The notes under the pieces were generated by a model. That model was not told where the DNA came from. It made no database searches and saw nothing but the letters and a program-made list of their open reading frames with translations. Below are positions 12,331 to 62,630 of a stretch of DNA of 64,000 nt, piece by piece. Numbering within the stretch: the first letter of the stretch is position 1; every line of letters starts with the position of its first letter. The stretch is from assembly GCA_031761405.1 (NCBI GenBank), contig JASEVX010000008.1, forward strand, positions 74,568,014-74,632,013. The letters are read 5' to 3'. The stretch comes from Serripes groenlandicus (Eukaryota; Mollusca; Bivalvia; Cardiida; Cardiidae). Made by a program: the position numbers and the translations under genes.

Positions 12331-13362
12331 AACAAGAGGGCCATGAGGCCCTGGAATCGCTCACCTGAGAATGGGCTATTTAAGACATAACTCTCATGCT
12401 CAAGCCAAACATGTGGCTTCCAGAGTGTTAACAAGATTTCCCTTAAATTTGGTCTAGTGACCTAGTTTTTGACATGACATGACCCATATTCGAACTTGGC
12501 CTGATATCATCAGGACAAACTTTCTGATAAAGTTTCAACATGCTCAAGTTTAAAATGCGGCTTCAAGAGTGTTAACGAGATTTTCCTTAAATTTGGCCTA
12601 GTGACCTAGTTGACCCGACATGACCTATATTTGAACTTAGCCTAGACATCACTAAGACAAACATTCTGACAAAGTTTCAACATGCTCAAGCCAAAAATGC
12701 GGCTTCAGGAGTGATAACAAGATTTTCCTTAAATTTGGCCTAGTGACCTACCTTTTGAACGGACATGACCTATATTCGAACTTGGCCTAGATATCATCAA
12801 GACAAACTTTCCGACAAAGTCTCAACATGGTCAAGTTTAAAATGTGGCTTCCAGAGTGTTAACAAGATTTTCCTTCAATTTGACCTAGTGACCTAGTTTT
12901 TGACCCGACATGACCTATATTCGAACTTGGCCTAGATATCACTATGACAAACTTTCCGACAAAGTTTCAACATGGTCAAGTTTAAAATGTGGCTTCCAGA
13001 GTGTTAACAAGATTTTCCTTCAATTTGGCCTAGTGACCTAGTTTTTGACCCGACATGACCTATATTCAAACTTGGCCTAGATATCACTATGACAAACATT
13101 CTGACAAAGTTTCAATATGCTCAAGCCAAAAATGCGGCTTCAGTAGTGTTAACAAGAGTTTCCTTAAATTTGACCTAGTGACCTAGCTTTTGACCCGACA
13201 TGACCTATTTTCGAACTTGGCCTAGATATCACTAAGACAAACATTCTGACAAAGTTTCAACATGCTCAAGCCAGCTAGTGACCTAGATTTTGACCCCACA
13301 TGACCCAGTTTCGAACTTGGCCTAGAGTTGATCGAGATATATGTTCTGATAAACTTTTATAA
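12331..13362 (+). mobile_element. Family A element with ~146-bp tandem core units; tail missing
   Basis: The head is AACAAGAGGGCCATGAGGCC then CTGGAATCGCTCACCTGAG. About six core units of ~146 bp follow, each with GTGTTAACAAGATTTTCCTT, TTGGCCTAGTGACCTAG, TTTTTGACCCGACATGACC, GAACTTGGCCTAGATATCA and AAAGTTTCAACATGCTCAAG. The last unit decays at TGATAAACTTTTATAAAG, so the microsatellite and terminal hairpin of full copies are absent. Confidence 0.85.
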
Positions 13363-13487
13363 AGAACATATTAAGTATTAAGTTATATGACATAGAATTG
13401 GATGCTTGCATCTCTGAACTGCTCCTTCTGATCAAAATCTACAAAAGAGAACAAGCTTGTGTAAGTTATAAGAAGACAGTGTATATC

Positions 13488-13625
13488 TTAACCCTTTCCC
13501 TCATACGACAATTCTGCAGCAGACGACTTTGAACATATTTTGTCAAAACATAGAAAATCTCAATAATTGAATGGATAATTACCTATGACTAGAAGTTGAA
13601 AACATTGTGTCAAAAGGAGAAATTG
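13488..13625 (+). mobile_element. TTAA element, left part
   Basis: TTAACCCTTTCCCTCATACG, ATTCTGCAGCAGACGACTTT and AAAACATTGTGTCAAAAGGAG identify the family; the right end is lost. Confidence 0.6.
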
Positions 13626-14367
13626 CACAATTTGTGAAATTTCTTCTTTTATCACTATGTTTTCAAATACCAACTTAACTTGACCCCTTTCTTTGTTGTA
13701 TCAACAAATTAAAGAAATTGGGAAAAATAAGACCAGTATTTATAAATTAAAAATAAAAACTGAGACCAAAAAAAAAAAATAGTCAGAAGGACATACAAAG
13801 CTACAAGAGGAAAACTAACTCTCTTTTGTTTTCTTTTTGCTTAGTATACATGGTCAAACATCTAATTGCCAATTTTAAAATCCAGAAGGATATCAAAATA
13901 AACAATGATCATGCAAATGTCTTTGCTATCTCTGTTAACTGTTAGCCTTTCACTTTAATAGGATGTCATTGACCATTACAGACTGATTAAATAGAATCAT
14001 GCTGAGGTGTACTGCTATCAGAAAGGTTTGACTGTTTGGGTATCAGGTTACATAATTTACTAAAGAATTTCCCATCTTCAACTCAGTCAGTAACTGTTCT
14101 TGTTTAATGTTCCTTGGTAAATACTAGCATCATATGCTGAAATAATTCTTTAATGACACAACATTGACCTCAATTTGTGTTAATAAGCAACTGAAAATTT
14201 GGATTAATCTAAGATTTTTCACATTTATCTCAAGATAATAATAATTAATCAGATGAATTCAAATATTTGTAAGTGTTCTTGAATGTACTACCAAACTTCT
14301 TTTTTTTCTTCCAATAAAATGATATATGTAGAACCTATATTTTTTTCCATTTCCTCATTCAGTTTAT

Positions 14368-14645
14368 CTTACTCGACACTCGACCATTCTTACTCGACAC
14401 TCGACCGTTCTTACTCGACACTCGACCATTCTTACTCGACACTCGACCTTTCTTACTCGACACTCGACCATTCTTACTCGACACTCGACCGTTCTTACTC
14501 GACACTCGACCATTCTTACTCGACACTCGACCTTTCTTACTCGACACTCGACCGTTCTTACTCGACACTCGACCATTCTTACTCGACACTCGACCGTTCT
14601 TACTCGACACTCGACCGTTCTTACTCGACACTCGACCATTCTTAA
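14368..14645 (+). repeat. 21-bp minisatellite, array 1 (~13 units)
   Basis: The unit is TTACTCGACACTCGACCATTC, with the variable base before TTC being A, G or T (CCATTC, CCGTTC, CCTTTC). Because 21 is divisible by 3, several frames stay open on both strands (peptides of repeating SYSTLDR or SSKNGRV); these are by-products, not genes. Confidence 0.93.
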
Positions 14646-14810
14646 TCCCTCGCTAAAGAATTATTTCAGCATATGATTAATGTTAATCCAGGAATATTTA
14701 ACTATCAGAGGTTTGACTGTTTGGGTATCAAGTTACATAATTCTCTAAAGAATTTCCCATCTTCAACCAAGTCAGTAACTGTTCTTGTTTAATATTCCTT
14801 GTTTATATAA

Positions 14811-15029: not shown

Positions 15030-15287
15030 TTTATACATTAATCATATGCTGAAATAATTCTTTAATGACACAACATTGACCTCAATTTGTGTTAATAAAC
15101 AACTCAAAGTTGGGATTGATTTAAGAATATACATTTGTCACTACATTATTAAACAATAATTAATCAGGTGAATTCAAATATTTGTTAGTGTATGTGTGTA
15201 GCTTAGTAACCAAACTTTTTTTTTCTTCCAATAAAATGATATATGTAGAACCTATAGGTTTTATTTTACTTTCCTCATTCAAACTAT

Positions 15288-19704: not shown

Positions 19705-21483
19705 ATCGAGGGCTTGGCGTGAAACGGTTGTAACTAAAAAATTATTTTGAAAACCCTGGTTTATGGACAATTTTAGGTACCGTTGCTTAGAACGAGCAAT
19801 GGCACCTACATTTCCATTGTTTTCAAAGAAAAACTAGAGATTGCTTTTTTGAAAAAGCGCTTGTCTCCCCATTTGTGTGGTCGTAGGGGAGGAAAAGAAA
19901 CGATGGAGATGAATTTTTTAGTTTTGGACTGGAGATGAAGCAACAGTGACAATCCTCAGTTATTGAGCGGAAACCATTTTTCAGCTGAGGGTTACCATGA
20001 CCTTGGTCTTTGACCTAGTGACCTCAAAATCAATAGGGGTCATTTGCTGCTGGTGACCAACCTGCACACCAAGTATGAAGTTCCTGGGCCCAAGCAATCT
20101 TCAGTTATTGAGCGGAAACCATTTTTCAGCCAAAGGTCACCGTGACCTTGACCTTTGACCTACTGACATCAAAATGGGGTCATCTACAGGTTAGGACCAA
20201 GCTGCACACCAAGTATGAAATTCCTGGGTATAAGCGCTCTTGAGTTATTGAGTAAAACACATTTTTCAGCTGAAGGTTACCGTGACCTTCGACATTTGAC
20301 TTTGTGACTTCAAAATCAAACAAACTGGTTAGGACCAACCTGCACACCAGGTATGAAGTTCCTCAACATAAGCATTCTTTAGTTATTGAGAGGAAACCAT
20401 TTTTCAGCTGAAGGTTACCATGACCTTGACCTTTAAGCTAGTGACCTCATAATCAATTAGGGTCATCTGCTGGTGGTGACCAACCTGCACACCAAGTATT
20501 AACTTCCACGGCCAAAGCATTCTACAGTTATTAGGAAAAACAATGTTTCAGCTCATTTTCACTGTGACCTTTCAGCTCAAGGTCACTATGACCTTGACTT
20601 TGACCTCAAAATTAATAGGGTCTTCTACTGGGCATGGCCAACCTGCATACCAAGTATGGAGTTCCTCGGCCCAAGCGTTCTTCAGTTATTGAGCGGAAAC
20701 CATTTTTTACATTACAAGGTCACCACGACCTTGACCTTTGACCTTCTGACATCAAAATCAATAGAAGTCATCTACTGGTCATGACCAACCTGCATACCAA
20801 GTATGAAGATCCTATGCCGAAGCGTTCTTCAGTTATTGAGCGGAAACAAGTGTGACGGATGTGACCTTGACCACTGTGACCTTGACCTTTGACCTAGTGA
20901 CCTTAAAATTAATAGGGGTCATTTGCTGGTGGTGACCAACCTGTACATCAAGTATGAAGTTCCTGGGCTCAAGCAAAAACTATTTATCAGCTCATTGTCA
21001 CTGTGACCTTTCAAGCTCATGTCACTGTGACCTTGACTTTAGACGTACTGACCTCAAAATCAATAGGGGTCTTTTACTAGGCATGGCCAACCTGCATACC
21101 AAGTATGGAGTTCCTCAGCCAAAGCGTTCTTCAGTAATTGAGCGGAAATCATTTTTTACCTCACAAGGTCACCATGACCTTGACCTTTGACCTTCTGTTA
21201 TCAAAATCAATAGGGGTCAGCTACTAGTCATGACCAACCTGCATACCAAGTATGAAGTTCCTACGCACAAGCGTTCTTCGGTTATTGAGCGGAAACAAGT
21301 GTGACAGACGGAAGGACGGAAGGACGGAAGGACGGACGGAACGGGCAAAAACAATATGTCACCCCCATGTAATGGGGGAGACATAATGATTTAACACATT
21401 ACAAGATTTTATGGCGAGGTGATTAACCTTGGTAAAAAAATACCAATTTTAGTTACAACTGTTTCACGCTAAGCCCTCGATAT
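19705..21483. mobile_element. TIR element that carries family D as an insert
   Basis: The left end is ATCGAGGGCTTGGCGTGAAA then CGGTTGTAACTAAAA (19705-19740). The reverse complement of the right end (about 21447-21483) is ATCGAGGGCTTAGCGTGAAA then CAGTTGTAACTAAAA: 35-bp inverted ends with two differences. Outside the family D core only ~240 bp remain, including a hairpin GGTACCGTTGCT / AGCAATGGCACC (about 19776-19806), consistent with a short MITE interrupted by family D. Confidence 0.75.
19855..21392 (+). mobile_element. Family D element: ~155-bp units with nuclear-receptor-like motifs
   Basis: The head is GAAAAAGCGCTTGTCTCCCC. Core units contain GACCTTGACCTTTGACCT, ATCAATAGGGGTCAT, GACCAACCTGCATACCAAG, TATGAAGTTCCT and CTTCAGTTATTGAGCGGAAA. 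The core ends in a GGACGGAAGGACGGAAGGAC microsatellite (~21303-21340) and a tail hairpin CCCCCATGTAATGGGGG followed by AGACATAATG. About nine units are visible, some partly deleted. Short open frames are by-products. Confidence 0.85.
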
Positions 21484-34656: not shown

Positions 34657-34659
34657 AAA

Positions 34660-36420: not shown

Positions 36421-36424
36421 ACAA

Positions 36425-39830: not shown

Positions 39831-39834
39831 AATG

Positions 39835-40620: not shown

Positions 40621-40627
40621 CATAACA

Positions 40628-40751
40628 AAACTTGAACTTTGAGCTAAACACAAAGTTCAAAAATACAAGAAATTAAAAAAAAACAAAAAAAAAAACCTAA
40701 TCCAATATTCAAAAATACAAGAAATTCCAAAAAAAAAATACAAGCGCAAAG
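40628..40751 (+). repeat. A-rich landing-site repeat with an empty site
   Basis: CTTTGAGCTAAACACAAAGT then TCAAAAATACAAGAAATTAA occurs here uninterrupted (40640-40681) and again in part at 40708-40725. The same words reappear at 42058-42070, 43558-43650 and 45030-45055 on the sides of inserted elements. Confidence 0.75.
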
Positions 40752-40752: not shown

Positions 40753-42055
40753 TAAACAAGAGGCCCATGGGGGCCTATGCTCTACTGGTATGGTTCTTTG
40801 GTCATTTTCAATACAGAGCATGTATGTATGGTGAAGATTGGATAGTAAATGGAGGCTCTTTTGTGTTCACAAGCTGTATTATAGCAATTTTGACAATTTC
40901 AAGGGCATAATCCAGTCATGCAAGGGCACATCTGGCTGGTTTTCGAAAGGAACCAAGCTCTCATCAATATTTAACTACTATCTAAGTTTGGTGAAGATCA
41001 GAGAGCAAATGGAGCCTTTATTGGTTTGCGAAAGGAACAGAGATCTCATCAATATTTAACTACTATCTAAGTTTGGTGAAGATTGAATAGTAAATGGAGG
41101 CTCTTGACAAAATTGACAATTTCATGGGCCATAATCCAGTCATGCAAGGGCACATCAGGCTGGTTTGCGAAAGGAACCAAGCTATCATCAATATTTAACT
41201 ACTATCTGAGTTTGGTGATGATTAGTTAGTAAATGGAGCCTCTATTGTGTTCACAAGTTCAATTATAGCAATTTTGACAATTCCAAGGGCCATAATCCAG
41301 TCTTGCAAAACAGACCGAGCTCTTATGGATATCTTACTACTGTATAAGTTTGATTGAGATACAATCAAAACTGAAGACTTTATCGCATTCACAATCTCTA
41401 TTATAGCAATTCTGACAATTTCAACGGCCATAATCCAGTCTTGCATGGCCGGATCTGGCTGGTTTTCGAAAGGAACCGAGCTCTCATCAATATTTAACTA
41501 CTATCTAAGTTTGGTGAAGATTACTTAGTAAATGGAGCCACTATTGTGTTCACAAGCTCAATTATAGCAATTTTGACAATTTCAAGGGCCTTATTCAGTC
41601 TTGCATGTGCGGATCTGGCTGGTTTGCGAAAGGAACTGAGCTCTCATGGATATCTAACTACTGTATTACTGTATAAGTTTGATTGAGATACAATCAAAAC
41701 TGAAGACTTTATCGCATTTACAAGATCTATTATAGCAATTTTGACAATTTCAAGGGCCATAATCCAGTCCTGCATGGGCGGATCTGGTTGGTTTGCAAAT
41801 GGATCCAAGCTCTCATGGATACCTAACTACTGTGTAAGTTTGGTGAAGATCAGATAGTAAATAGAGCCTCTATTGTATTCACAAGCTCTATTATAGCAAT
41901 TTTGACAATTTCAAGGGACATAATCCAGTCTTGCATGTGCGGAGCTGGCTGGTTTGCGAAAGGAACCGACCTCTCATGAATATCTAACTACTGTATAAGT
42001 TTGATTGAGATACAATCAAAACTTAAGACTGTATCACCTTTCACAAGCAATTGTT
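40753..42055 (+). mobile_element. Family C element, tail missing
   Basis: The head is AACAAGAGGCCCATGGGGGC then CTATGCTCTACTGGTATGG. Core text repeats irregularly (~150 bp) with GTTTGGTGAAGATTGGATAG, AAATGGAGCCTCTATTGTGT, TATAGCAATTTTGACAATTT, AAGGGCCATAATCCAGTC and GCGAAAGGAACCGAGCTCTC. It stops at TTCACAAGCAATTGTT without the terminal hairpin seen at 62594-62622. Confidence 0.85.
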
Positions 42056-42068
42056 TAGCGCAAAGTTA

Positions 42069-43560
42069 AAACAAGAGGGCCATGAGGCCCTGGAATCGCT
42101 CACCTGAGAATGGGCTATTTAAGACATAACTCTTTCAGCGCCAATGGCAATATCATCAAGACAAACTTTCTGACAAAATTTCAAGCTGCTCAAGTCAAAC
42201 ATGCAATCTCTATAGTGTTAACTAGATTGTTCTACAATTTGGGCTAGTGACTTATTGTTGACCTGACCTGACCCATATTCGAACTTACCCTAGATGTCAT
42301 CAAGACAAATAGTCTGATAAAGTTTCAACATGCTCAAGCCAAACATGTGGCTTCCAGAGTGTTAACAAGATTTCCCTAGTTTTTGACATGACATGACCCA
42401 TATTCGAATTTGGCCTAGATATCATCAGGACAAACTTTCTGATAAAGTTTCAACATACTCAATTTTAAAATGCGGCTTCAAGAGTGTTAACAAGATTTTC
42501 CTTAAATTTAGCCTAGTGACCTAGTTTTTGAGCTGACATGACCCATATTCGAACTTGGCCTAGCTATCACTTAGACAAAGTTTCAACATCCTCAAACCAA
42601 AAATGTGGCTTCCAGAGTGTTAACAATATTTTCCTTCAATTTGGCCTTGTGACCTAGATTTTGACCCAACATGACTCATATTCGAACTTTACCTAGATAT
42701 CACTTAGTCAAATTTTCCGACATAGTTTCAACATGCTCAAGCCAAAAATGTGGCTTCCAGAGTGTTAACAAGATTTTTCTTAAATTTGGCCTAAATACCT
42801 AGTTTTTGACCGGACATGACCCATATTCGAACATGGCATAGATATCATCAAGTCAAACTTTCTGACAAAATTTCAACATGCTCAATTTAAAATGTGGCTT
42901 CCAGAGTGTTAACAATATTTTCCTTCAATTTGGCCTAGTGACCTAGTTTTTGACCCGACATGACCTATATTCGAACTTGGCCTAGATATTACTAAGGCAA
43001 ACATTCTGACAAAGTGTCAACATGCTCAAGCCAAAAATGCGGCTTAAAGAGTGTTAACAAGATTTTCCTAGTTGGTCTTTTTTACCCGACATGACCCAGT
43101 TTCGAACTTGGCCTAGATTTGATGGAGGTATATGTTCTGATAAACTTTCATGATAGATAGATAGATAGATTTTATTTACGTATACATATACATGCATCTT
43201 GTAATACAAACAAATAAATACATAATTTCATGGTCATTTGAAAAGAAAAAGAAAAAAATCAGTTGTTTTGGGGGGTAAACTGCTATGAGTTGAACTTCGC
43301 TAAAATAGGGTAAGAGGAGAATGAGACATTTTTCTAGTTTGTTGATTGTTTAAGAGAATCACATAGAAAAGAAATATAAGATGTCATAAACCTACACACA
43401 AACAAGCTTAACGCAAATAATGGGAATGAAGATCGGATGCAAAATGTTGCCTCTAGAGTGTTAACAAGCAAATGTTGACGACAGACGACGAACGACGAAC
43501 GACGGACAAAAGGCGATCACAAAAAATCACCTTGAGCACTTTGTGCTCTGGTGAGCTAAA
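42069..43560 (+). mobile_element. Family A element, complete, with a nested insert
   Basis: The head is ACAAGAGGGCCATGAGGCCC; about eight ~146-bp units follow; the tail has GACGACGAACGACGAACGAC, GGACAAAAGGCGATCAC, then the hairpin CACCTTGAGCACTTTGTGCTC...GGTGAGCTAAAA. Left flank CGCAAAGTTAAA and right flank ATACAAGAAATTA rejoin to the empty-site sequence at 40650-40681 with no target duplication. Confidence 0.92.
43152..43424 (-). mobile_element. Probable LINE 3' fragment nested in family A
   Basis: The host family reads AAACTTTCATGAAGATTGGATGC elsewhere; here CATGA is followed by (TAGA)n, TTTTATTTACGTATACATAT and ~230 unrelated bases before AATGAAGATCGGATGC resumes. ATGA may be a short duplication. 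A (TAGA)n/TTTATTTACG end is typical of the 3' tail of a LINE in inverse orientation; no coding frame is left, so the class is inferred. Confidence 0.65.
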
Positions 43561-43917
43561 AATACAAGAAATTAAAAGATTATTTTTTTCAGCTAAACGC
43601 AAAATTCAAAAAAATATATTTGAGTTAAACACAAAGTTCAAAAATACAAAAAATTAAAAAAAAAAAAAAAAAAAAAAAGAAGTTTTTACCCTGAAACCTT
43701 TTTGATATGTTGAAGTACTTTATTTATGAAATTTGAAATTATTCCAACAAAATTTAAAGAAGCTTTGTCCAATTCTCAAAATCCACCAAAAATCAAGTGT
43801 TTTACCCCCCAAAAAGGTCACACTCGGCATCTTCAGCATACAATTCCAGAATGTTATTAGATGTAACTATATCCCAAATATGAAAGCCCTAGTACCAAAA
43901 CTTATTGAGAACAAACA
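43561..43917 (+). other. Landing-site repeat and A-rich spacer
   Basis: It contains ATACAAGAAATTAAAAG, GCTAAACGCAAAATTCAAA, AACACAAAGTTCAAAAATAC and a poly-A run (43651-43678), then text with AAAAGGTCACACTCGGCATC that also occurs, diverged, at 29550-29585 inside the 1-kb TIR element. No gene. Confidence 0.5.
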
Positions 43918-43919: not shown

Positions 43920-45022
43920 ACAAGAGGGCCATGATGGCCCTGGAATCGCTCACCTGATTTTTTTTCCCACTTCAGCTATATAAGCCCCGCACCCTGGCAG
44001 CCATAGTTTCTGACCAATCAACTTGGCTTGCAGGAATCTGATAGAGGGTCACCCTAGAAACATTTCTACAAAATTATTTGAAAATCAGCCAGACATTTTT
44101 GGAGGAGAATTTTTTTAAGTTTTCACTATATAGCCATATAATGCAAAATAGCCCTGCCCACTGGCGGCCATGTTTTTTGACCAATCAACATGGCTTGAAG
44201 GAATCTGAAAGTGGGTCATCCAAGGAATATTTCTACAAAATAATTTGAAAATCGGCCAGACACTTTCGGAGGAGAAGATTTTTTAAGTTTTCACTATAGC
44301 CATATAAGGCAAAATAGCCCCGCCCCCCCCCCCCCCCCTGACGGCCATGTTTTTCGACCAATCAACTTGGATTGAAGGAATCTGATAGAGGGTCATCCAA
44401 GGAACATTTCTACAAAATTATTTGAAAATCGGTCTGACACTTTCAGAGGGGAAGATTTTTTAAAGTTTCACTATAGCCATATAAGGCAAAATAGCCCCGC
44501 CCCCTGGCGGCCATGTTTTTTGACCAATCAACATGGCTTGAAGGAATCTAAAAGTGGGTCATCCAAGGAACATTTCCACAAAATTATTTGAAAATAGGCC
44601 AGACACTTTCGGAGGAGAAGATTTTTTAAGTTTTCACTATAGCCATATAATGCAAAATAGCCCCGCCCCCCCCCCCCTGGCGGCTATGTTTTTCGACCAA
44701 TCAACATGGCTTGAAGGAATCTCATAGAGGGTCATCCAAGGAACATTTCTACAAAATTATATGAAAATCTGCCAACCAGTTTGGGAGAAGAAGAATTTTG
44801 AAGTTTTTTTCATTTTGTTGCCATGGAAACCAGAATTCTGCATGGATCCCAAAAATTTGAAGGAAATCTGGTGAAGTCATTGAGGGGTTGCTATCTGTGA
44901 AGTTTCATCCCAATTGACCCACTGGTTACTGAGGAGAAGAAGTTGACGAACGACGGACGACGCACGCCGGGCAAAAGGCGATCACAATAACTCACCTTGA
45001 GCAAAGCTCAGATGAGCTAAAA
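43920..45022 (+). mobile_element. Family B element, complete
   Basis: The head is ACAAGAGGGCCATGATGGCC; six ~165-bp units follow, two with expanded poly-C inside CCGCCCCCC (about 44322-44338 and 44663-44677); the end unit has GTTGCCATGGAAACCAGAAT, GACGAACGACGGACGACGC, then the hairpin and GATGAGCTAAAA. Confidence 0.92.
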
Positions 45023-45060
45023 ACAAACAAACTTTAACGTTGAGCTACTCGCAAAGTTAA

Positions 45061-45634
45061 ACAAGAGGGCCAAGATGGCCCTAAATCGATCACCTGAATG
45101 ATAGTAAATTAGAAGCAAATATTAAACTGCAAATATCTGTGAAATAATTTATCAGGAATTCAAATGAAACTGCAAGGAGTGGACACTCAGTTGAAGAAAT
45201 AGTTTATCAGTAAAAGCCATTTGTATCTATAAAGATTTGTCATTTTGCCCCTTTCCTGATGCTGCTTTGCTGCCCTGTTTGTCAACGAAATCAATATGGC
45301 TTGAACAGTTTTTGTAGTCACCCAAAGAACATTTCTGCCAAACTATCTTGGAATCTGACAAATGGATTATGGAAATGGAGATTTTTAAAGTTTGGGTATT
45401 TTTCTCAATTTCTGATGCCGCAGCAACAAAAATTCTATACAGAATGCAAGTCTTCGAACAATTTTGAAAGAGGACCATCAAAGGAACATTCCTGTGAAGT
45501 TTGGTTGAAATTGGTCATGTGGTTAAGGAGAAGATGCTGTTTAAAGCTAAAGGTTAACGACGACGACGGACGGACAACGGACAAAGAGTGATCAGGATAG
45601 ATCACCTGGAGCCTTTGGCTCAGGCGATCTAAAA
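45061..45634 (+). mobile_element. Short element with family-type head and hairpin tail but different core
   Basis: The head is ACAAGAGGGCCAAGATGGCC, the tail GACGACGACGGACGGACAAC then a hairpin AGATCACCTGGAGCCTTTGG / CTCAGGCGATCT and AAAAAT. The single core unit (TTTTGCCCCTTTCCTGATGC, GAACATTTCTGCCAAACTAT, TGCCGCAGCAACAAAAATTC) is not tandemly repeated. A fragment lies at 32985-33110. Confidence 0.82.
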
Positions 45635-45639
45635 ATACG

Positions 45640-47284: not shown

Positions 47285-47645
47285 ACAAGAGGGCCATGAT
47301 GGCCCTGGATCGCTCACCTTAATTATATACAATGTACTGCAAGGCAAAACACATCAGGACAATTATTCTGAATGCAACCTCCACAGTGTTAACAAGATTT
47401 TCCTTCATTTGGCCTAGTGATCTATATTTTTTTACCTGATATGACCCATATATTCCAACATGGACTAGATATCATCAAGACAACATTCTGACAAAGTTTC
47501 AACTTGCTCAAACTAAAAATGCGGCCTCCAGAGTTTAAACAATATTTTGCTTTATTGACCTTGTTTCTGACCCAATATGACCCATATTCAAACTTGACCT
47601 AGATATAATTCAGACAAACATTCTGACCAAATTTCAAGCTGCTGA
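47285..47645 (+). mobile_element. Family A element, head and two units
   Basis: The head is ACAAGAGGGCCATGATGGCC; the core is short and then passes into a family B head at ~47652 without its own tail. Confidence 0.8.
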
Positions 47646-47649
47646 AGCA

Positions 47650-48596
47650 AACAAAAGGGCCATGATGGCACTGGATCGCTCACCTGATAAAAATATTTTT
47701 TCACTTTAGCTATATAAGCCCTGCCCCCTGGCAGCCATAGTTTTCGACTAATCAACTTGGCTTGAAGGAATCTGAAAGTAGGTTACTTAAGGAACATTTC
47801 TATAAAATTATTTGAAAATCGGCCTGATACTTTTGGAGAAGAAGATTTTTTAAGTTTTCACTATAGCCATATAAGGCAAAAAAGTCCCGCCCCACCCCTG
47901 GCGGCCATGTCTTTCGACCAATCAACATGGCTTGAAGGAATCTGATAGAAGGTCATCCAAGGAACATTTCTGCAAAATTATTTGAAAATCGACAGGACAC
48001 TTTCGGAGGAGAATATTTTTAAAGTTTTCACTATAGCAACATAAGGCAAAATAGCCCCCCGCTCCCCCCCCCCCCCCCCCCCCCCCTGGCGGCCATGTTT
48101 TTTGACCAATCAACATGGCTTGAAAGAATCTGATAGAGGGTCATCCAAGGAACATTTCTACAAAATTATATAAAATCTGGTGAGGTCATTGAGAGGATGC
48201 TTTCTGTGAAGTTTCATCCCAATTGACCCACTGGTTACTGAGGAGAAGAAGTTGACGCACGACAAGTGTTAACAAGATTACCCTTCAATTTGGCCTAGTG
48301 ACCTAGTTTTTAAACCGACATGAGTTTCAACATGCTCAAGTTGAAAATGTGGCCTCCAGAGTGTAAACAAGATTTCCCTTCAATTTGACCTATAGTGACC
48401 TAGTTTTTGACCTCATATGGCAAAGTTTCGAACTTGTCCAAGATTTGATGGAGATGAATTTTCTGATAAACTTTCATGAAGATTGGATGCCAAATATAGC
48501 CTATAGAGTGTTAACAAGCTCAAATGTTGACGACGCACCACGGACAAAATGTGATCACAATAGCTCACCTTGCACTTCGTCCATAGGTGAGCAAAA
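47650..48596 (+). mobile_element. Chimeric element: family B front, family A rear
   Basis: A family B head (AACAAAAGGGCCATGATGGC) and four B units, one with a long poly-C tract (48064-48086), run to GAGAAGAAGTTGACGCACGAC. The text then switches to family A (AAGTGTTAACAAGATTACCC, GACCTAGTTTTT) and ends with a family A tail GACGACGCACCACGGAC, then CTCACCTTGCACTTCGTCCA and AGGTGAGCAAAA. The switch lies at ~48263. Confidence 0.85.
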
Positions 48597-48597
48597 A

Positions 48598-48685
48598 ACG
48601 TATCCATTATGATTTTTGATTTAAGCCTCTGTTTTCAAATGCTAGCCTTCGAAAGATAGCCGTAGCTATGCAGCTAGCAAAAAAG
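48598..48685 (+). mobile_element. Family H segment, continued
   Basis: ACGTATCCATTATGATTTTT then GATTTAAGCCTCTGTTTTCA continues the unit left at 47284; the joined order equals the uninterrupted text at 56433-56480. Confidence 0.75.
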
Positions 48686-49076
48686 CTCACTTGATTTTAT
48701 TTATTTTCACTTCAGTCATATAAGCCCCGTCCCTGGCGGCCATAGTTTTCAACCAATAAACATGGCTTAAAGGAATCTGATAGAGGGTCACCCTAGGAAT
48801 ATTTCTACAAAATTATTTGAAAATCTGCAAACCAGTTTGGAAGAAGAAGAATTTTAAAGTTTTTTCGTTTTGTTACCATGGAAACCAGAATTCTGTATGG
48901 ATCCCAAGGAAGAAATTCTGATGAGGTCATTGAGAGGATGCTATCTGTGAAGTTTCATCCCGAATGACCCACTAGTTACTGAGGAGAAGAAGTTGACGGA
49001 CGATTGACGACGGACGCTGGACGAAAGGCGATCACAATAACTCACCTTGAGCACTTTGTGCTCAGGTGAGCTAAAA
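48686..49076 (+). mobile_element. Family B element, first and last units only
   Basis: A worn head (AAAAAAGCTCACTTG), one core unit and the end unit with GTTACCATGGAAACCAGAAT, GGACGATTGACGACGGACGC and the terminal hairpin TCACCTTGAGCACTTTGTGC ... GGTGAGCTAAAAA. Confidence 0.85.
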
Positions 49077-49079
49077 ATG

Positions 49080-49917: not shown

Positions 49918-51470
49918 TAAATGGCAATATCATCAAGACAAACTTTCTGACAAAATTTCAAGCTGCTCAAGTAAAAAATGCAATTTCTATAGTGTTAACT
50001 AGATTGTTCTACAATTTAGCCTAGTGACGTAGTTGTTGACCTGACCCGACCCATATTTGAACTTGACCTAGATATTACTAAGCAAATTTTCATTAAATTT
50101 GGTCTAGAGACCTAGTTTTTGACATGACATGACCCATATTCAAACTTGGCCTAGATATCATCAAGACAAACTTTCTGACGAAGTTTCAACATGCTCAAGT
50201 TTAAAATGCGGCTTCCAGCGTGTTAACAAGCTTTTCTTTCAATTTGAGCTAGTGACCTAGTTGTTGACCCGACATGACCTATATTCAAACTTGGCCTAGA
50301 TATTAATAAGACATACTTTTTGACAAAGTTTCAACATGCTCAAGCCAAACATGTGGCTTCCAGTGTTAACAAGATTTTTATTAAATTTAGCCTAGTGACC
50401 TAGTTTTTGACAGGACATGACCCATATTCAAACTAGGCCTAAATATCATGAGGACAAACTTTCTGATACATTTTCATGATGCTCAAGTTTAAAATGCGGC
50501 TTTCAGAGTGTTGACAAGATTTTCTTTCAATTTAGCCTAGTGACGTAGTTGTTGATCCGACATGACCTATATTCAAACTTGGCCTAGATATCACTAAGAC
50601 ATACTTTTTGACAAAGTTTCAACATGCTCAAGCCAAACATGTGGCTTCCAGAGTGTTAACAAGATTTTCATTAAATTTGGCATAGTGACCTAGTTTTTGA
50701 CAGGACATGACCCATATTCAAACTTGGCCTAGATATCATCCGGACAAACTTTCTGATAAAGTTTCAAGATGCTCAAGTTTAAAATGCGGCTTCCAAAGTG
50801 TTGACAAGATTTCCCTTCAATTTGGCCTAGTGACCTATTTTTTGGCCTGACATGACCCATATTCAAACTTGGCCTAGATATCACTTAGACAAATATTCTG
50901 ACACAGTTTCAAGCCAAAAATGTGGCTTCCAGAGTGTCAACAAGATTTTCATTAAAGTTGGCCTTAGAGTGACTTAGTTTTTAACCCGACATGACCAAGT
51001 TTCGAACTTGGCCTAGATATCATTAATTAATACAATTTTTTTGACAAAGTTTCAATATGCTCAAGTTTAAAATATGGCTTCTAGAGTGTTAACAAGATTT
51101 TCCTTCAATTTGGCCTAGTGACCTAGTTTTTGACCCGACATGATCCAGTTTCGAACTTGGCCTAGATATCATCGAGACAAACGTTTTGACAAAGTTTCAA
51201 CATGCTCAAGTTTAAAATATGGCTTCCAGAGTATTAACAAGATTTTCCTTCAATTTGGCCTAGTGACCTAGTTTTTAACCCGACATGACCCATATTCAAA
51301 CTTGGCCTATATTTGATAGAGATATATGTTCTGATAAACTTTCATGAAGATTGGATGCAAAATGTTGCCTCTAGAGTGTTAACAAGCAAATGTTGACGAC
51401 TGACGACGGACAAAAGGCGATCACAAAAACTCACCTTGAGCACATTGTGCTCTGGTGAGCTAAAAACACT
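49918..51470 (+). mobile_element. Family A element, head missing, tail complete
   Basis: About ten units with TTTGGCCTAGTGACCTAG and GACATGACCCATATTCAAAC run to TGAAGATTGGATGCAAAATG, then GACGACTGACGACGGACAAA and the hairpin CTCACCTTGAGC..GCTCTGGTGAG ending CTAAAAA. This is the longest core array in the window. Confidence 0.9.
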
Positions 51471-54754: not shown

Positions 54755-56255
54755 CCATTCTTCACTCCACGGCCATTAGGCAAAAATTAAATCTCCAAAC
54801 AGCCCCGCCCACTGATGGCCATTTTTTTTGACCAATCAACATGGCTTAAGGGAATCTGAACAGGAACATTCAGATTGTCAAAGAACATTTCTACAAAATT
54901 ATTTGAAAATCAGCCCGACACATTCGGAGAAGAAGATCTTTTAAGTTTTCACTATAGCCTTATAAGGCAAATAAGCTCCAACATAGTGGCAATAGTTTTC
55001 GACCAATCAACATGGACATTTCTACAAAATTATTTGAAAATCAGCCTTACACTTTCGGAGAAGAAGTTTTTTTAAGTTTTCACTATAACCATATAAGGCA
55101 AAAATAGCCCCGCCCCCTGGTGGCCATGTTTTTCGACCAGTCAACATGGCTTGCAGGAATCTGATAGAAGGTCACCGTAGGAACATTTTTTACAAAACTA
55201 TTTGAAAATCGACCTAACACTTTCGGAGGAGAAGCAACGCGGGCTGTCAATCCAGGGGTTGTGAGTTTGAATCCCGGCTCGGCCAACTTTCTTTCCGACG
55301 ATTGACAAAAGTCAATGCGACATGCATCATTCCTCTTCCACCAATGGGCCAAGTCTATGTGGAAAAGCAGCCAGTTGCTTGGGAAGATTGTTGTGTGGAG
55401 TACTGGTGTGAGAAAACCAGGAAATGCATGAGTAGGTGAACTGGCCGCCATGATATAACTGAGAAATTGTTAAAAACGGCGTTAAACCCCAATCAATCAA
55501 TCAGAGAAGATTTTTTAAGTTTTCATTATAGCCATATAAGGCAAAAAAGACCCGCCCTCTGGCGGCCATGTTTTTCGACAATTCAACTTGGCTTGAAGGA
55601 ATCTGATAAAGAGTCACCCAAGGAACATTTTTGCAAAATTATTTGAAAATTGGCCAAACACTTTTCGGAGGAGAAGATTTTTTAAGTTTTCACTATAGCC
55701 ATATAAGGCAAAATAGCCCAGCCCCCAGGTGGCCATGTTTTTTGACCAATCAACTTGGTTTGAAGGAATCTGATAAAGAGTCACCCAGGAAACATTTCTA
55801 CAAAATTATTTGAAAATCAGCCTGAAACTTTCAGAGGAGAAGTTTTTTTAAGTTTTCACTATAGCCATATAAGGCAAAAATAGCCCCGCCCGTGGCAACC
55901 ATGTTTTTTCGTCCAATCAACTTGGCATGAAGGAATCTGATAGAGGATCACCCAAAGAACATTTCTACAAAATTATTTGGAAACCGGCCAGACACTTTCG
56001 TTGAAGAAGATTTTTTAAGTTTACAGTTTCTTTTTCTTTCGGTTGCTATGGAAACCAGAATTTTGCATGGATCCCAATAATTTGAAGGAATTCGGGTGAG
56101 GACATTGAGAGGATGTTTCCTTTGAATTTTCATTCTAATTGGCCAAGTGGTTAGGGAGGAGAAGTTGTTTGAAACAAAAAGTTAACAGACGCATGCACGT
56201 ATGACGGACAAATTACTCCATGACATAAGCTTGACTGGCTTTCAGCCAGTTGAGC
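54755..56255 (+). mobile_element. Family B element interrupted by a SINE
   Basis: A worn head (CTCCACGGCCATTAGGCAAA), units at 54790-55234 and 55504-56030, an end unit with GTTGCTATGGAAACCAGAAT and the hairpin GACTGGCTTTCAGCCAGT. At 55234/55504 the unit is split inside GGAGGAGAAG/ATTTTTTAAG by a SINE. The right end joins ACGTATCCGTTATG of family H. Confidence 0.88.
55235..55503 (+). mobile_element. SINE family S2, 5' truncated, nested in family B
   Basis: The duplication GAGAAG flanks it (55229-55234 and 55504-55509). It starts inside the tRNA-like head (CAACGCGGGCTGTCAATCC), keeps the B-box GTGAGTTTGAATCCC and the body GAAAAGCAGCCAGTTGCTTG, and ends GGCGTTAAACCCCAATCAAT then CAATCA. The minus-strand 122-codon frame over it is not a gene. 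Confidence 0.92.
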
Positions 56256-56690
56256 TTAAAACGTATCCGTTATGATTTTTGATTTAGGCCTTTGTTTTCA
56301 AATGCTAGCCTTCCAAAGATAGCAGTTGCTATGCAGCTAGCAAAAAACCTCGTTTTAAGAACCAAAACCATTTTTCTATCTTCTCCTACAGTTATTAATG
56401 TGGAGAGCTGAAACTTCGGTTAAAGATACTTCGAGATATTTAGAAAAAACGTATCTGTAACAATTTTTGATTTAGCCCCTAAATTAGGCCTTTGTTTTTA
56501 AATGGTAGTCTTTGAAAGATAGGGTCTTTTAACAGTCATGTTTGACTTCTATCGCCCCTAGCACTGCAGTGGTAGCATTCGATAGCGATTTTATTGCACC
56601 ATCTTATAGAGCAGCTATTCAAGAGCTACAACAAGTTTTGTTTCATGATTGACCTCCGACCTCGACTTTCCGAGCTAGAGCCGGAATTCT
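56256..56690 (+). mobile_element. Family H segment with an empty insertion site
   Basis: TTTTTGATTTAGGCCTTTGT, TTGCTATGCAGCTAGCAAAA and TTTTTCTATCTTCTCC appear; then 56433-56455 reads GAGATATTTAGAAAAAACGT then ATC without an insert, the site that is filled at 47285-48596. After 56520 the text is unique-looking up to the next element. Confidence 0.72.
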
Positions 56691-56693: not shown

Positions 56694-58114
56694 AACAAGA
56701 GGGCCATGATGGCCCTGGAATCGCTCACCTAATATTTTTTTTTCACTTTAGCTATATAAGCCCCGCCCCCTGGCAGCCATAGTTTCCGACCAATCAACTT
56801 GGATTGAAGGAATCTGATAGAGGGTCACCCTAGGAACATTTCTACAAAATTATTTGAAAATCGGCCAGACACTTTTGGAGGAGAAGATGTTTTAAGTTTT
56901 CACTATAGCCATATAAGGCAAAATAGCACTGCCCACTGGCGGCCATGTTTTTTTACCAATCAACATGGCTTGAAGGAATCTGAAAGTGGGTCATCCAAGG
57001 AACATTTCTACAAAATTATTTGAAAATCGGTCTGACACTTTCGGAGAAGAAGATTTTTTAAGTTTTCACTATAGCCATATAAGGCAAAATAGCCCCGCCC
57101 CCCTGGCGGCCATGTTTTTCGACCAATCAACATGGCTTGAAGGAATCTGATAGAGGGTCATCCAAGGAACGTTTTTACAAAATTATTTGAAAATCAGCCA
57201 CACACTTTCGGAGGAGAAGATGTTTTAAGTTTTCACTTTGGCCATATAAGGCAAAATAGCCCCGCCCCCTGGCAGCCAAGTTTTTCGACCAATCAACATG
57301 GTTTTCAGGAATCTGATAGAGGGTCACTTAAGGAACATTTCTACAAAATTATTTAAAAATCGGCCCGACACTTATGGAGGAGAAGATTTTTTAAGTGTTC
57401 ACTATAGCCATAAAAGGCAAAATAGCCCCGCCCCCTGGCGGCCATGTTTTTTGACCAATCAACATGGCTTGAAGGAATCTGATAGAGAGTCACCCAAGGA
57501 ACATTTCTAAAAAATTATTTGAAAATCGGCCTGACACTTTTGGAGGAGAAGATTTTTTAAGTTTGCACTATAGCCATATAAGGCAAAATAGCCCCGCCCT
57601 GGCGGCCATGTTTTTCGACCAATCAACATGGCTTGAAGGAATCTGATAGAGGGTCACCCAAGGAACATTTCTACAAAATTATTTGAAAATCGGCCTGACA
57701 CTTTCGGAGGAGAAGATTTTTTAAGTTTTCACTATAGCCATATAAGGCAAAATAGCCCCGCCCCCCCTGGCGGCCATGTTTTTCAACCAATCAACATGGC
57801 TTGAAGGAATCTGATAGAGGGTCATCTAAGGAACATTTCTACAAAATTATTTGAAAATCTGCCAACCAGTTTGGGAGAAGAAGAATTTTGAAGTTTTTTC
57901 AGTTTCGTTGCCATGGAAACCAGAATTTTGCATGGATCCCAAAAATTTGAAGGAATTCTGGTGAGGTCATTGAGAGGATGCTTTCTGTGAAGTTTCATCC
58001 AAATTGACCCACTGGTTACTGAGGAGAAGAAGTTGACGCACGACGCACGACGGACGCCGGACAAAAGGCGATCACAATAACTCACCTTGAGCAAAGCTCA
58101 GGTGAGCTAAAAAT
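56694..58114 (+). mobile_element. Family B element, complete and longest B array
   Basis: The head is ACAAGAGGGCCATGATGGCC; eight ~165-bp units follow with little divergence, then the end unit GTTGCCATGGAAACCAGAAT, GACGCACGACGCACGACGG and the hairpin CTCACCTTGAGCAAAGCTCA then GGTGAGCTAAAAA. Low divergence between units suggests recent amplification. Confidence 0.93.
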
Positions 58115-58312
58115 GCAAAGGTGAATCCAACGTCTTTGTCTGTTTGTAAAGGGACAGACCGATTCCGATGAAACTTGGTAAACGGGTACCATAGGGGGGG
58201 GGGGGGGGTCAGATTGTGGGCGTTTGAGTTCCGTTGCTATTCACCTAGCAAAAACCCGCTTTTTAAAAACCCAAACCAATTTTTCTATATTCTCCTTCGA
58301 GATATTAAGAAA
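58115..58312 (+). mobile_element. Family H segment
   Basis: GACAGACCGATTCCGATGAA, a poly-G run (58194-58208), GTTTGAGTTCCGTTGC and CCTTCGAGATATTAAGAAA, where the next element head begins. Confidence 0.7.
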
Positions 58313-59085
58313 CAAGAGGTCCAAGAAGGCCAGTATCGCTCCACGGCCATAAATCTCCAAACAGCTCTGCCCCCTGGTGGCCATGTTTTTTACCAACCAT
58401 CATGACTTAAAGGAATCTTGTAGAGTGTCACCCAAGGAATGTTTAGGCAAAATTATTTGAAAATCTGCCTGACACTTTCAGACGAGAGGATATTTTAAGT
58501 TTTCACTATAGCCATATAAGGCAAAATAGCCACACACCCTGGCGGCGATATTTTTCAACCAATCAACATGGCTTGAAGGAAACAGATAGAAGGTCAGCCT
58601 AGGAACATTTCTACAAAAGTATTTGAAAATCTGCTCAACACTTTCGGAGAAGAAGATCTTTTAAGTTTTCACTATGGTCATATAAAGCAAAATAGCCCCG
58701 CCCTCTGCTGGCCATGTTTTTCGACCAATCAACATGGCTTGAAGGAATCTGATAGAAGGTCACCCAATGAACATTTCTACAAAATTATTTGAAAATCGGC
58801 TTAACACTTTCGGAGAAGAAAGTTTTCACTATAGCTACATTAGGCAAAATAGCCCTGCCCCCTGGCGGCCATGTTTTTCAACCAATCAACATTTCTTGAA
58901 GGAATCTAATAAAGGTTCACCCAAGGAACATTAATTTTCTACAAAATTATTTGAAAATTGGCCTGACACTTTTGGAGAAGAAGACTTTTTAAGTTTTCAC
59001 TATTGTTTTCTTTTGGTTGCCATGGAAACAAGAATTTTCGATGGACCAAAAAAGAATTCTACAAAAAGTTGTTTTAAGTGATTGA
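58313..59085 (+). mobile_element. Family B element, tail lost
   Basis: The head is ACAAGAGGTCCAAGAAGGCC then AGTATCGCTCC as in the 33399 copy, four units, and an end unit GTTGCCATGGAAACAAGAAT that decays without microsatellite or hairpin. Confidence 0.82.
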
Positions 59086-60312: not shown

Positions 60313-61130
60313 CCAAACCTTAATTTATCCATACACTTTCATGTATTGTTTGCAAAATAAGACAATGTATGCCATCAATATTAACGTCAAGCATCTCATC
60401 ATTACAAAAAACAGGCACTTCAACCTCAATATTCCAGAATTCAATGTTTATTTGTTCATCATCATCAAGTTCATGTTTAAGGAGCCCAAACGATGGATTC
60501 TTAAAGTACACATTGAAATGACATTATAAAATGATGCAATAGTATTTTCAGGGTTTTTCAAAAGCAGTTCAAACACTGGAATATTTTATGAAAACTGGTT
60601 GCTATAGAAACACCATTTTCATGCATGCATACCATATTCATTAACTAGCAAAAGTGTCATGCAAACTAAAACAATGTTTGCCATGAATATAATTCAGAGC
60701 ATGTTTCCATAAGGCACAGAAAACAGTCTCATACATTATACCTATATACAGCGCCTTTCCAACTACTATATTAGAGGCCGATCTACTTCAGAATTTGAAA
60801 AAGCCATATTTGTTCACAATGTTGCAGAAAAAATTCACAAATAAAAGACAAAATTCACATAACAAACGAATGAAATGTACGTTTGCATTTGTGAATTTCC
60901 TTTTTATTCGGTAGATTAAACAATCGTAACTTTTCTGACACTCGCACCCTCAGTTTTATTTGATTGTTTCGTTTTTTGTCCGTATGCGTCATATGAGTCA
61001 TTCGCTTTCATTAAAACCTCGATTCTGATTGGATAAAAAAGAAAATTACAGTCAATGATTTGCCGCCTTATGTAATGATTTCGGCTTGTTTCAAAATTAA
61101 CTACCCTGATCTTAAAATTCAAAACACACC
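60313..61130. other. Non-coding DNA; CCAAT-like box near 61030
   Basis: GATTCTGATTGGATAAAAAAG at ~61020 includes an inverse CCAAT box, and TTCACAAAT / ATTTGTGAAT near 60835-60897 form an inverted pair. This could be a promoter for the frame that starts at 61131, but it is weak. Small minus-strand frames here show no domain. Confidence 0.4.
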
Positions 61131-61500
61131 ATGTCACATAATCGAAAGTACTGCGTCAAGTGTTTAAAAAAGGTTTCTGACACATCACAGAAAAGTTTGC
61201 TTGTTTTTTTTTTAAAATCTGTAAATGGTCCGGCTTCTGTTATCAATACGAGACAACGTTGGACTTAAGCGACGCTGATGATTCGACAGAGCAAACCTTG
61301 TCTGAATCGACCGATAAAATTGAACCTGTTGATCATCCAATTTCTACCACAAATATTTCTTCGGATCTCGCGGGACTAAGTCCCTAGAGCCAGAACCAAT
61401 GGAAGTTTCAACCCCACCCTCTGACCAATTTCCAACATCAAACTATTCTGATTTTAAAACTGAATGCACACAAATGGTTGAAAATAGTGAATATATTTAA
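61131..61500 (+). pseudogene. Frameshifted coding relic with a CxxC motif
   Basis: From ATG at 61131 the frame reads MSHNRKYCVKCLKKV and stays open to ~61266. A T10 run at ~61204-61213 precedes a switch: the next frame reads CKWSGFCYQYETTLDLSDAD and continues acidic and Ser/Thr-rich to GLSP and a stop at ~61388. A third frame then reads EPEPMEVSTPPSDQF to a stop at ~61500. Three adjoining open frames with protein-like composition suggest one old coding sequence with two indels. YCVKC could be half of a zinc-binding site. I do not recognise the family; a transposon-encoded protein or a processed gene are both possible. Confidence 0.45.
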
Positions 61501-61620
61501 AAGTTCTATTAGTTTTATGTATGTATACAGTAGTTTATTCAACTGTTCGGCCATAGGCCTTTCTTCATGTTATATTTTACAAAGATCACAATACTAGTAT
61601 GTTATGTCCATCTTGAAAGA

Positions 61621-61732
61621 TTAACCCTTTCCCTCATACAACAATTCTGCAGCAGACGACTTTGAACATATTTTGTCAAAAAAATGGAAAATCTCTTTTA
61701 TTGAATGACTAAAATTGGAAAACATTGTGGAA
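61621..61732 (+). mobile_element. TTAA element, left half, joined to family C
   Basis: TTAACCCTTTCCCTCATACA, ATTCTGCAGCAGACGACTTT and GAAAACATTGTGG lead directly into AACAAGAGGCCCATGAGGGC. Confidence 0.7.
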
Positions 61733-62630
61733 CAAGAGGCCCATGAGGGCCTATGCTCTACTGGTATGGTTCTTTGGTAATTTTCAATCCAGAGCATGTA
61801 TGTATGGTGAAGATCGGATAGTAAATGGAGGCTCTTTTGTGTTCACAAGCTGATTTATAGCAATTTTTACAATTTCATGGGCCATAATCCAGTCTTGGCG
61901 GATCTGGCTGGTTTTCAAAAGGAACTGAGCTCTCATCAATATTTAACTACTATCTAAGTTTGTTGAAGATCAGATAGTAAATAGAGCCTCTATTGTGTTC
62001 ACAAGCTCTTTTATTGCAATGTTGACAATTTCAAGGGCCATAATCCAGTCTTGCATAGGCGGATCTGGCTGCTTTTCAAAAGAAACCGAGCTCTCATCAA
62101 TATTTAACTACTATCTACGTTTGGTGTAGATCGGATAGTAAATGCAGGCTCTATTGTGTTCACAAGCTATATAATAGCAATTTTGATAATTTCAAGGGCC
62201 ATAATCCAGTCTTGCATAGGCGGATCTGGCCGGTTTGCGAAACAACCGAGCTCTCATGATATCTAAAAACTGTATAAGTTTGATTGAGATACAATCAAAA
62301 CTTTATCGCGTTCACAAGCTCTATTATAGCAATTCTGACAATTTCAAGGGCCATAATCCAGTCTTGCATGGCCGGATCTGGCTGGTTTGCAAAAAGAACC
62401 AAGCTCTCATGGATACCTAACTACTGTTTAAGTTTGGTGAAGATCAGATAGTAAATGGAGCCTTTATTCTGTTCACCACCTCATGGATATCTAACTACTG
62501 TTTGATTGAGATACAACCAAAACTGAAGACTGTATCGCGTTCACAAGCAATTGTTAACGGATGCACGGACCACGGACACCACGCCACGGCATAAGCTCTT
62601 ATGGCCTTTGGCCATAAGAGCTAAAAACTA
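61733..62630 (+). mobile_element. Family C element, complete
   Basis: The head is AACAAGAGGCCCATGAGGGC then CTATGCTCTACTGGTATGG; five to six units; then ACGGATGCACGGACCACGG and a perfect 13-pair terminal hairpin AGCTCTTATGGCC (62594-62606), loop TTT, GGCCATAAGAGCT (62610-62622), ending AAAAACT. Same layout as families A and B with a different core and different hairpin. Confidence 0.92.

Follow-up and report, generated by a model that had tools for sequence, protein, structure and literature searches.

In a 64-kb stretch of the genome of the bivalve Serripes groenlandicus (64,000 nucleotides of contig JASEVX010000008.1, positions 74,568,014 to 74,632,013; hereafter the window), 20 repeated elements and fragments were delineated, which make up 20.3 kb, or 32% of the window, in a hand-set annotation. 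The structural tests run here support their assignment to the Helentron-associated non-autonomous elements (HINEs), that is, to the non-autonomous elements of the Helentron (Helitron2-like) class. They have matched ends that enclose a core of tandem repeats, and one of their families, B, is probably made of a core array of one type (B') lying between the ends of another type (A); the joint on the 5' side would be at or close to the microsatellite.

One core array between two sets of ends

Read on the minus strand, the elements start with TTTTTAGCTCACCTGAG.. and immediately form a hairpin; a GTCC/GTCG microsatellite and the core come next, and the hairpin arm is then repeated ahead of a palindrome and a final TCTTGT. 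The families are told apart by their cores, the tandem periods of which (Tandem Repeats Finder, TRF) are about 145 bp in A, 166 bp in B, about 161 bp in C, about 150 bp in D, 157 bp in E and 163 bp in F; the core of the short element S has about 1.5 diverged units only. Family B comprises two end types on one core, namely B (35344, 43920 and 56695) and B' (33400, 58312 and 55.5 kb). The copies of families A, B, B', C and S with recognised cores are as follows (subTIR, subterminal inverted repeat):

12332..13362, minus strand: A1, A core that retains the 3' end but not the 5' end
33400..34659, minus strand: B'1, complete HINE with a 166-bp core array and B'-type ends (5' end at 34659, end of the 3' palindrome at 33400)
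35344..36421, minus strand: B2, complete HINE with a 166-bp core and A/B-type ends
40756..42058, minus strand: C1, HINE with a 161-bp core; 5' module lost
42071..43562, minus strand: A2, HINE with a 145-bp core and A/B-type ends; apparent secondary insertion near 43148-43431
43920..45023, minus strand: B3, complete HINE with B core and A/B-type ends
45061..45635, minus strand: S, short HINE with the subTIR GATCACCTG/GATCGCCTG altered at both ends and a diverged, B-related core
47285..48598, minus strand: A3, A-core HINE hosting the 5'-truncated B6; paralogous empty site at 56395-56500
47651 to about 48262: B6, 5'-truncated element nested in A3
48686..49077, minus strand: B5, B core with an A-like 5' module; 3' end lost
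49929..51466, minus strand: A4, A-core array that retains the 5' end but not the 3' end
54763..56261, minus strand: B'3, B core that has a 5' end of B' type but has lost the 3' palindrome; it apparently carries a secondary insertion near 55235-55500
56695..58113, minus strand: B4, complete HINE with B core and A/B-type ends
58312..59050, minus strand: B'2, B'-type 3' end and core; 5' end lost
61732..62627, minus strand: C2, complete HINE with a 161-bp core and C-type ends (B'-like palindrome GGCCC..GGGCC)

The end modules were aligned over 58 nt at the 5' end and 42 nt at the 3' end, these lengths and the family boundaries having been set by hand after the sequence had been viewed. The 5' modules of A are 72-82% identical to those of B2-B4 (z 7.7-11.7), and that of B5, an element with a B core, is 93% identical to A2 and A4 and 81-82% to B2-B4; the 3' modules of A and B are 82-91% identical. 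The cores of A, B and C are unrelated to each other save for weak matches (A4 with C, z 5.8; A with B' in antiparallel, z 3.8), and the comparison of the B and B' cores with that of C gave no relation (z at most 0.9). By alignment, then, A and B are one set of ends carrying two apparently unrelated cores. The initial annotation had proposed several unrelated cores behind one set of ends; this stands for A and B, but the core of B has two end types, and the converse situation, one core behind two sets of ends, had not been noticed. Its further claim that the element at 45061 (S) has an unrelated core was rejected, since this core matches that of B at 184 of 301 positions (z 20), while the claim of unrelated cores holds for A, B and C apart from the weak matches.

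The cores of B and B' match at 152 of 167 positions. Their 5' modules are 62-67% identical (B' against B2-B4, z 4.2-6.5), whereas those of B' and C reach 69-74% (z 6.9-9.3); the 3' modules of B' show 63-70% identity to those of A, B, S or C. When the two end modules are joined into one alignment (15 rows, 107 columns), the tree splits A, B and S from B' and C with support of 99/99, and the grouping of B with B' is rejected by the approximately unbiased (AU) test (p 0.004). A second run with one more row gave p values of 0.0009-0.025 for B with B' on both modules and of 0.001-0.003 on the 5' module alone; three aligner settings were used in this run, two of which gave equal figures, and it therefore counts as two tests rather than three. 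The AU test, which concerns the ends alone, does not tell donor from recipient and is compatible with two core replacements.

A stronger argument for exchange than this test is the comparison of identities between ends and cores. Among 24 near-full monomers drawn from six elements (a set without partial monomers and without any from B5, B6 or 54.8-55.2 kb), the identity of B to B' monomers is 85.0% (140 pairs), which lies between the values for different B' elements (83.1%, 31 pairs) or within B' elements (82.0%, 14 pairs) and those between B elements (88.9%, 64 pairs) or within them (88.8%, 27 pairs). The 5' ends of B and B', on the other hand, are only 64% identical, against 98% among B and 87% for the one pair of B', and the 3' ends 67%, against 91% among B and 93% for the one pair of B'. 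The order is thus reversed: within the families the ends are as well conserved as the cores or better (87-98% against 82-89%), and between them the ends fall to 64-67% with the cores at 85%. In a tree of 26 monomers, to which two of B6 were added, B and B' are not separated: four changes are needed, and none of 200 bootstrap trees (0%) needs only one.

The position of the left joint can be approached along B4. A sliding-window comparison gives B4 a likeness to A4 of 93% over roughly the first 60 nt and of about 50-77% thereafter, and its likeness to B'1 rises to 87-90% from about nt 105; the left joint would therefore lie at or near the microsatellite. Just inside the microsatellite, at nt 90-220, local alignment finds B4 like B' (94/119, z 25) and unlike A (z 1.0), and B' unlike C (z 0.4). 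The right joint would fall between the core and the 3' subTIR, somewhere in roughly the last 60 nt.

Several results weigh against an exchange. With the 3' module alone, the grouping of B with B' is not clearly rejected (p 0.03-0.11) and that of B' with C was not recovered in two of three runs, so the evidence of the 3' end is weak. On the monomer tree the B and B' labels do cluster (4 changes against 8.2 when shuffled, with 1 of 500 shuffles as low), a clade of B' cores is not rejected (p 0.26), and the starred branches force at most one change. The global identity of B and B' at nt 90-220 is 63%, as compared with 82% within B and 69% for one pair of B'; there are thus many insertions, deletions or shifts of register here, and the step at the microsatellite is not sharp. 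Moreover, all counts come from one 64-kb window, in which the copies of one family are related and not independent of each other.

Some of these results favor the principal rival, in which the elements belong to the same HINE class but the ends of B and B' were never exchanged, A and C each having replaced their core, in the manner of the oyster elements of group 2 described below, and the ends of B and B' having diverged fast together with a change in subTIR specificity. The scaffold still shared by the B and B' ends (the 62-67% of the 5' module), the low global identity of the inner 5' region, and the unrejected separation and clustering of the B and B' cores all agree with it, and a published oyster group (group 1 of PMC7492417) has related cores with diverged subTIRs. 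It requires, however, that the ends outran the cores between the families only, when within the families the ends are conserved like the cores or better, and it has to accommodate the grouping of the B' with the C ends (99/99, chiefly by the 5' module). We consider it rather unlikely, and the most likely account, although not a proven one, is an exchange of modules that were joined close to the microsatellite. In that event a B'-type core array would have come to lie between A-type ends, giving family B, and other exchanges would have given A and C their cores.

A wider proposal, possible if somewhat doubtful, is that HINE families are combinatorial: the mobilizing protein would read the matching of the two subTIRs as such, the 3' partner opening the 5' hairpin, together with the fixed T-run and TCTTGT borders, and cores, as interchangeable cargo, would be swapped between sets of ends by way of the microsatellite. 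If so, core arrays and end sets have separate genealogies, and the exchange of HINE cargo is a route by which satellite-like repeats jump between lineages of transposons. The microsatellite, as a possible joint, would also give a role to this constant part of the HINEs.

One set of ends with several cores is already known from oyster HINEs (PMC7492417, PMC8268682). Group 2 of Cg_HINE of Crassostrea gigas (PMC7492417) has related flanks and 'completely unrelated' repeats, as here, and elements with two arrays have been published for Cg_HINE; eight families of C. gigas Helitron-N share a left box of 53 bp and a right box of 42 bp (Boxes 4/5 of PMC8268682), which by description only are akin to the 58-nt and 42-nt modules of the window. 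In Cg_HINE, however, a given cluster of cores always goes with a single pair of flanks, a relation termed 'consistent (but not vice-versa)' in PMC7492417, whereas in the window the B core stands behind two types of ends. No report of one core behind two sets of ends was found in the open literature searched, supplements and non-open papers being outside its scope. The pair B/B' offers a testable exception to the published rule of one pair of ends per core.

Polarity, architecture and class of the elements

The initial annotation had read the elements in the opposite direction: its 'tail', with a hairpin and CTAAAAA, is the 5' end, and its 'head', with ACAAGAGG and a palindrome, is the 3' end. 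The two elements with less similar ends and a further end fragment are:

640..830, minus strand: A5, fragment with an A-like 5' end only
19833..21386, minus strand: D, HINE-like element with a core of about 150 bp, a (GTCC)n-type microsatellite, the subTIR TGTCTCCCC, the foldback GCTTTTTCAAAAAAGC and 3' CTCTAGT; no 5' T-run
39145..40246, plus strand: E, complete HINE with a TTTTT-AACCAGGTTTTCC hairpin, (GGCG)n, a 157-bp core, the 3' subTIR GAAAACCTGGTTT, the palindrome CATGGAATTTCCATG and TCTTGT

Element E has the identical order of parts on the other strand, with subTIR, palindrome and microsatellite (GGCG) sequences of its own. At least four T's open 13 of the 14 5' ends, and at all 14 3' ends the CTTGT, or the variant of it that D and B6 have, is succeeded by a T. 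A hairpin of -6.3 to -14.1 kcal/mol is predicted at all 14 of the 5' ends examined (no shuffle control), and the 3' palindrome appears in the predicted fold of 12 of 14 3' ends, B6 retaining a short stem and B'2 folding without the palindrome. A microsatellite lies next to the 5' module and a tandem core is present, S having only its diverged units. Truncation is frequent, affecting A1, A4, A5, B5, B6, B'2, B'3 and C1.

The motif ACAAGAGG occurs 12 times, always on the plus strand, where 1.81 occurrences are expected, and is followed by a palindrome and an element at 11 of the 12 sites (with an imperfect palindrome at 58312), the exception being 13803; the head motif and palindrome of the initial annotation were thus confirmed. 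In a scan of both strands for a palindrome directly followed by CT[TA]GT, 17 sites scored at least 6; a background of 40 Markov sequences had 3.35 such sites on average and never more than 8. Nine of the 17 are heads of A, B, B', C or S and belong to the 11 ACAAGAGG heads (33404 scored 5 and 58312 was missed), 40242 on the plus strand completes E, 40548 is a further candidate, and 19860 is the foldback of D read from the other strand. The other five (34854, 1362, 50021, 36566 and 13807) have no element, and their number is about as chance predicts. Two pieces that resemble 3' ends were also seen without recognised cores, at 39013-39060 (ACAAGAGCACC..GGGTGTC) and 40545-40590 (ACAAGAATTACGCGTAATT), and possibly represent further end types.

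As regards the shared architecture that had been proposed, microsatellite, hairpin, CTAAAAA ends and tandem cores are all present, though several copies are truncated and C1 lacks its hairpin end. The period of the C core is near 161 bp instead of about 150 bp, and the hairpins are not specific to each family, as A and B share one. D, E and F had been described as showing parts of the plan; E in fact shows all of it, and its core (39247-39816) is related in antiparallel to that of F (59307-60269), with 99 of 158 positions matching (z 13.7). Further weak antiparallel matches of cores join B with E (z 4.8), B' with E (3.3) and D with E (3.2). The end modules of D and E are 43-59% identical to the rest (z at most 4.1, mostly below 4). 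The ends of A, B and S, and less closely those of B' and C, align within the window while the A, B and C cores do not, so that the outcome named beforehand as speaking against a common set of ends did not occur for these families; D and E share the plan with them but hardly the sequence.

The order of parts is the one published for HINEs, in which a 5' subTIR, an inverted repeat, a microsatellite, tandem repeats, a 3' subTIR and a palindrome succeed each other, with T-rich targets and no target duplication (PMC7492417, PMC4067079), and Helitron2 has the same order (PMC3627910). Because the elements of the window have paired subTIRs, a 5' hairpin, a 3' palindrome, a microsatellite, a tandem core and a T-run target without duplication, the structural tests support the HINE class, and with it the Helentron assignment of the initial annotation. 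Cg_HINE (PMC7492417) likewise has a 5' subTIR of 11-12 bp with an inverted repeat, a GTCY/GTCC-type microsatellite, a tandem core of 140-180 bp, a 3' subTIR with a palindrome, and a T-rich target without duplication, the likeness being one of description. HINE/DINE-1 elements and Helentrons (PMC4067079) resemble the present ones in their subTIRs, the inverted repeat (in DINE-1), the microsatellite, the central repeats, the 3' stem-loop, the TT target, the variable number of T's and the lack of duplication; several of those HINEs have been linked to autonomous Helentrons, whereas those of the window have not yet. Short arrays of repeats of about 160 bp in a modular plan are also described for the bivalve elements Pearl/CvA, CvE, CvG, DTC84 and MgE (cited in PMC7492417, PMC11136912 and PMC5139131), the resemblance being again by description only.

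Some features fit the HINE class less well. The subTIRs of C2 match weakly, D lacks the 5' T-run and shares hardly any end sequence with the other families, and of the empty sites a single one matches cleanly to the left and the right. No Rep/helicase was found in the eight of the 16 listed long open reading frames of the window that were scanned with Pfam. A 476-aa open frame at 2858-4288 (minus strand) has a sub-threshold match to NHL repeats and 73 homologues among the ENA proteins. In collections of virus and prokaryote contigs, at least 166 stretches (47 from five viral-contig scans, four of them empty, and at least 119 from prokaryote contigs, with 80 listed) were compared; none had a blastn match to the window at 1e-5 among the matches listed, and they are therefore regarded as chance matches to a loose pattern.

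An origin as foldback DNA elements with terminal inverted repeats (TIRs), that is, as tandem-repeat miniature inverted-repeat transposable elements (MITEs) moved by a DDE transposase, is very unlikely. It would account for the short inverted repeats near both ends and for the foldbacks, and pearl-type bivalve elements have been called MITEs (PMC5139131), but the inverted repeats are asymmetric, being near-terminal at one end and about 20-30 nt inside at the other, where the palindrome follows, and no target duplication exists at the clean empty site of A3 or at the partial ones of A2 and S. This class was rejected, the inverted repeats not being symmetric and no fixed-length duplication having been found at one clean and two partial empty sites. 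Still less probable are canonical Helitrons (Helitron1) in the polarity of the initial annotation, in which the hairpin and CTAA of the right end resemble a CTRR terminus; there is no 5' TC, insertion is in a T/A run and not between A and T, and E, on the other strand, and all the rest fit the Helentron order in one polarity only. This candidate, too, was rejected, a 5' T-run with hairpin, a 3' TCTTGT and a T-run target being found instead.

Matched subterminal repeats and insertion sites

Within an element the 5' and 3' subTIRs match, and from one end type to another they differ together. When six end types were each represented by a single element (B2, S, B'1, C2, D and E) and all 720 pairings of their 5' and 3' subTIRs were scored, the true pairing gave a sum of 52, as compared with a mean of 30.3, and was the second best. 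With C left out, the true pairing was the best of 120 (46, the next being 42). Duplex energies (DNA parameters, B4 replacing B2) gave -71.9 against a mean of -39.7, with 2 of the 720 pairings as low. Individually, in nine of ten elements at most 18 of 2000 shuffles matched as well, and in S a change of GCTC to GATC is present at both ends. Two results tell the other way: the only better pairing, with a sum of 53, swaps B' and C, so the test separates five kinds of ends without telling B' from C, and the own match of C2 is weak, 169 of 2000 shuffles being as good.

The matched 5'/3' duplexes (-8.9 to -14.5) have a strength like that of the 5' hairpins, which is what is required by the published idea that the 5' hairpin is opened, and the endpoint of replication thereby set, through pairing with the 3' partner (PMC3627910). 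Helitron2 in that paper resembles the present elements in its asymmetric 5' inverted repeat inside a 5' hairpin, its subterminal 3' partner upstream of the 3' hairpin and its insertion in a T-run, and compensatory change of the paired repeats is known there in two related Helitron2 elements. It differs in that no coding copy is seen here and that six end types of a single window entered the present test of subTIR matching; target duplications, which some Helitron2-like elements of that paper carry, are not seen here. By analogy, hairpin opening through pairing of the 3' subTIR may be the end signal in the window, and paired subTIRs that differ together between end types bear on how Helentrons find their ends. 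Following published models, a Rep/helicase supplied in trans would copy one strand starting at the 5' end, and the 3' subTIR with the palindrome would mark the end, the copied 3' subTIR perhaps pairing with the 5' subTIR and opening the 5' hairpin. The core would be passive cargo, and therefore any core between matched ends would move.

The elements insert into a T-run without target duplication, as found from one clean and two partial comparisons with empty sites, for which the uninterrupted copies are:

56395..56500, plus strand: paralogous empty site for A3, with a T-run and no duplication
40610..40700, plus strand: uninterrupted copy of the repeat that flanks A2 and S in pieces; a short flank is common to C1 too

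A3 and its empty site agree over some 40 nt to the left and to the right, apart from a 12-nt gap on the 5' side; they meet in a T-run, and nothing but T's is duplicated. The A2 site matches over about 18 nt on the 5' side and about 12 nt on the 3' side (uninterrupted copies at 40610-40700 and 43590-43680), and the S site over about 15 nt on the 5' side and nearly 40 nt on the 3' side (copy at 40610-40700); neither has a duplication past a few T's, but the match is good on one side only and these comparisons are partial. The number of terminal T's is ambiguous at the insertion sites. The initial annotation had named target duplications typical of another class as speaking against its reading, and none was seen at the clean site or at the two partial ones.

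The repeat that hosts A3, interrupted at one and the same T-run position, flanks A3, B'2 (3' side) and B'3 (5' side); it lies at 47270-47285, 48593-48640, 56258-56300 and 58290-58312 and is uninterrupted at 56433-56460. Eleven to 12 nt of the 3' flank are common to A2, C1 and S, which belong to three different families. The host repeat of A2 and S is A/T-rich and has a T-run with an AACTTTG..CAAAGTT hairpin, like the 5' end of another element, and B2 adjoins, on its 3' side, what resembles a 5' hairpin end, now decayed, from an earlier element of A-like type. Read on the minus strand, the host repeat of A2 and S consists of T5 followed by GAACTTTG-TGTTTAGCT-CAAAGTTC, at 40640-40690 and 43620-43660 and in the flanks of 40756, 42071 and 45061.

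The copies are crowded, filling about 59% of 33.4-62.6 kb by hand-set intervals, and 13 of the 14 recognised 3' ends lie on one strand by manual count, with E alone opposite. Both the crowding and the shared orientation would be accounted for if later copies had landed in the T-run with which an older element's 5' end begins. Clustering in nearly a single orientation might also point to segmental duplication or fragments of tandem arrays in place of transposition, but most copies have flanks unlike those of the others, and for A3 an empty paralogue exists, which makes this most improbable. An A-core fragment without ends, at 37864-38311, is likewise opposite in orientation.

A single 64-kb stretch of bivalve DNA thus displays the full grammar of the HINEs.

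Further repeats in the window

The insertion within A2 (43148-43431) starts with GATA and is close to the A2 5' module. That within B'3 (55235-55500) has a ATCAATCAATCA tail and GAGAAG on either side and looks like a short interspersed element; a stretch in it resembles a tRNA B-box. A similar tail, reversed, occurs near 63390-63430.

At 7228-8399 a 52-bp unit is repeated in tandem, with a higher-order period of 155 bp in TRF, and the array contains, at about 7769-7925, a second copy of its left flank (about 7228-7385). There are two 21-bp arrays of the TCTTACTCGACACTCGACCAT type, at 14367-14644 and 15287-15514, and a foldback at 46990-47065, one arm of which is GTCTGTCTGTCCAGGTTTTCTTTTTAGCG and the other its complement.

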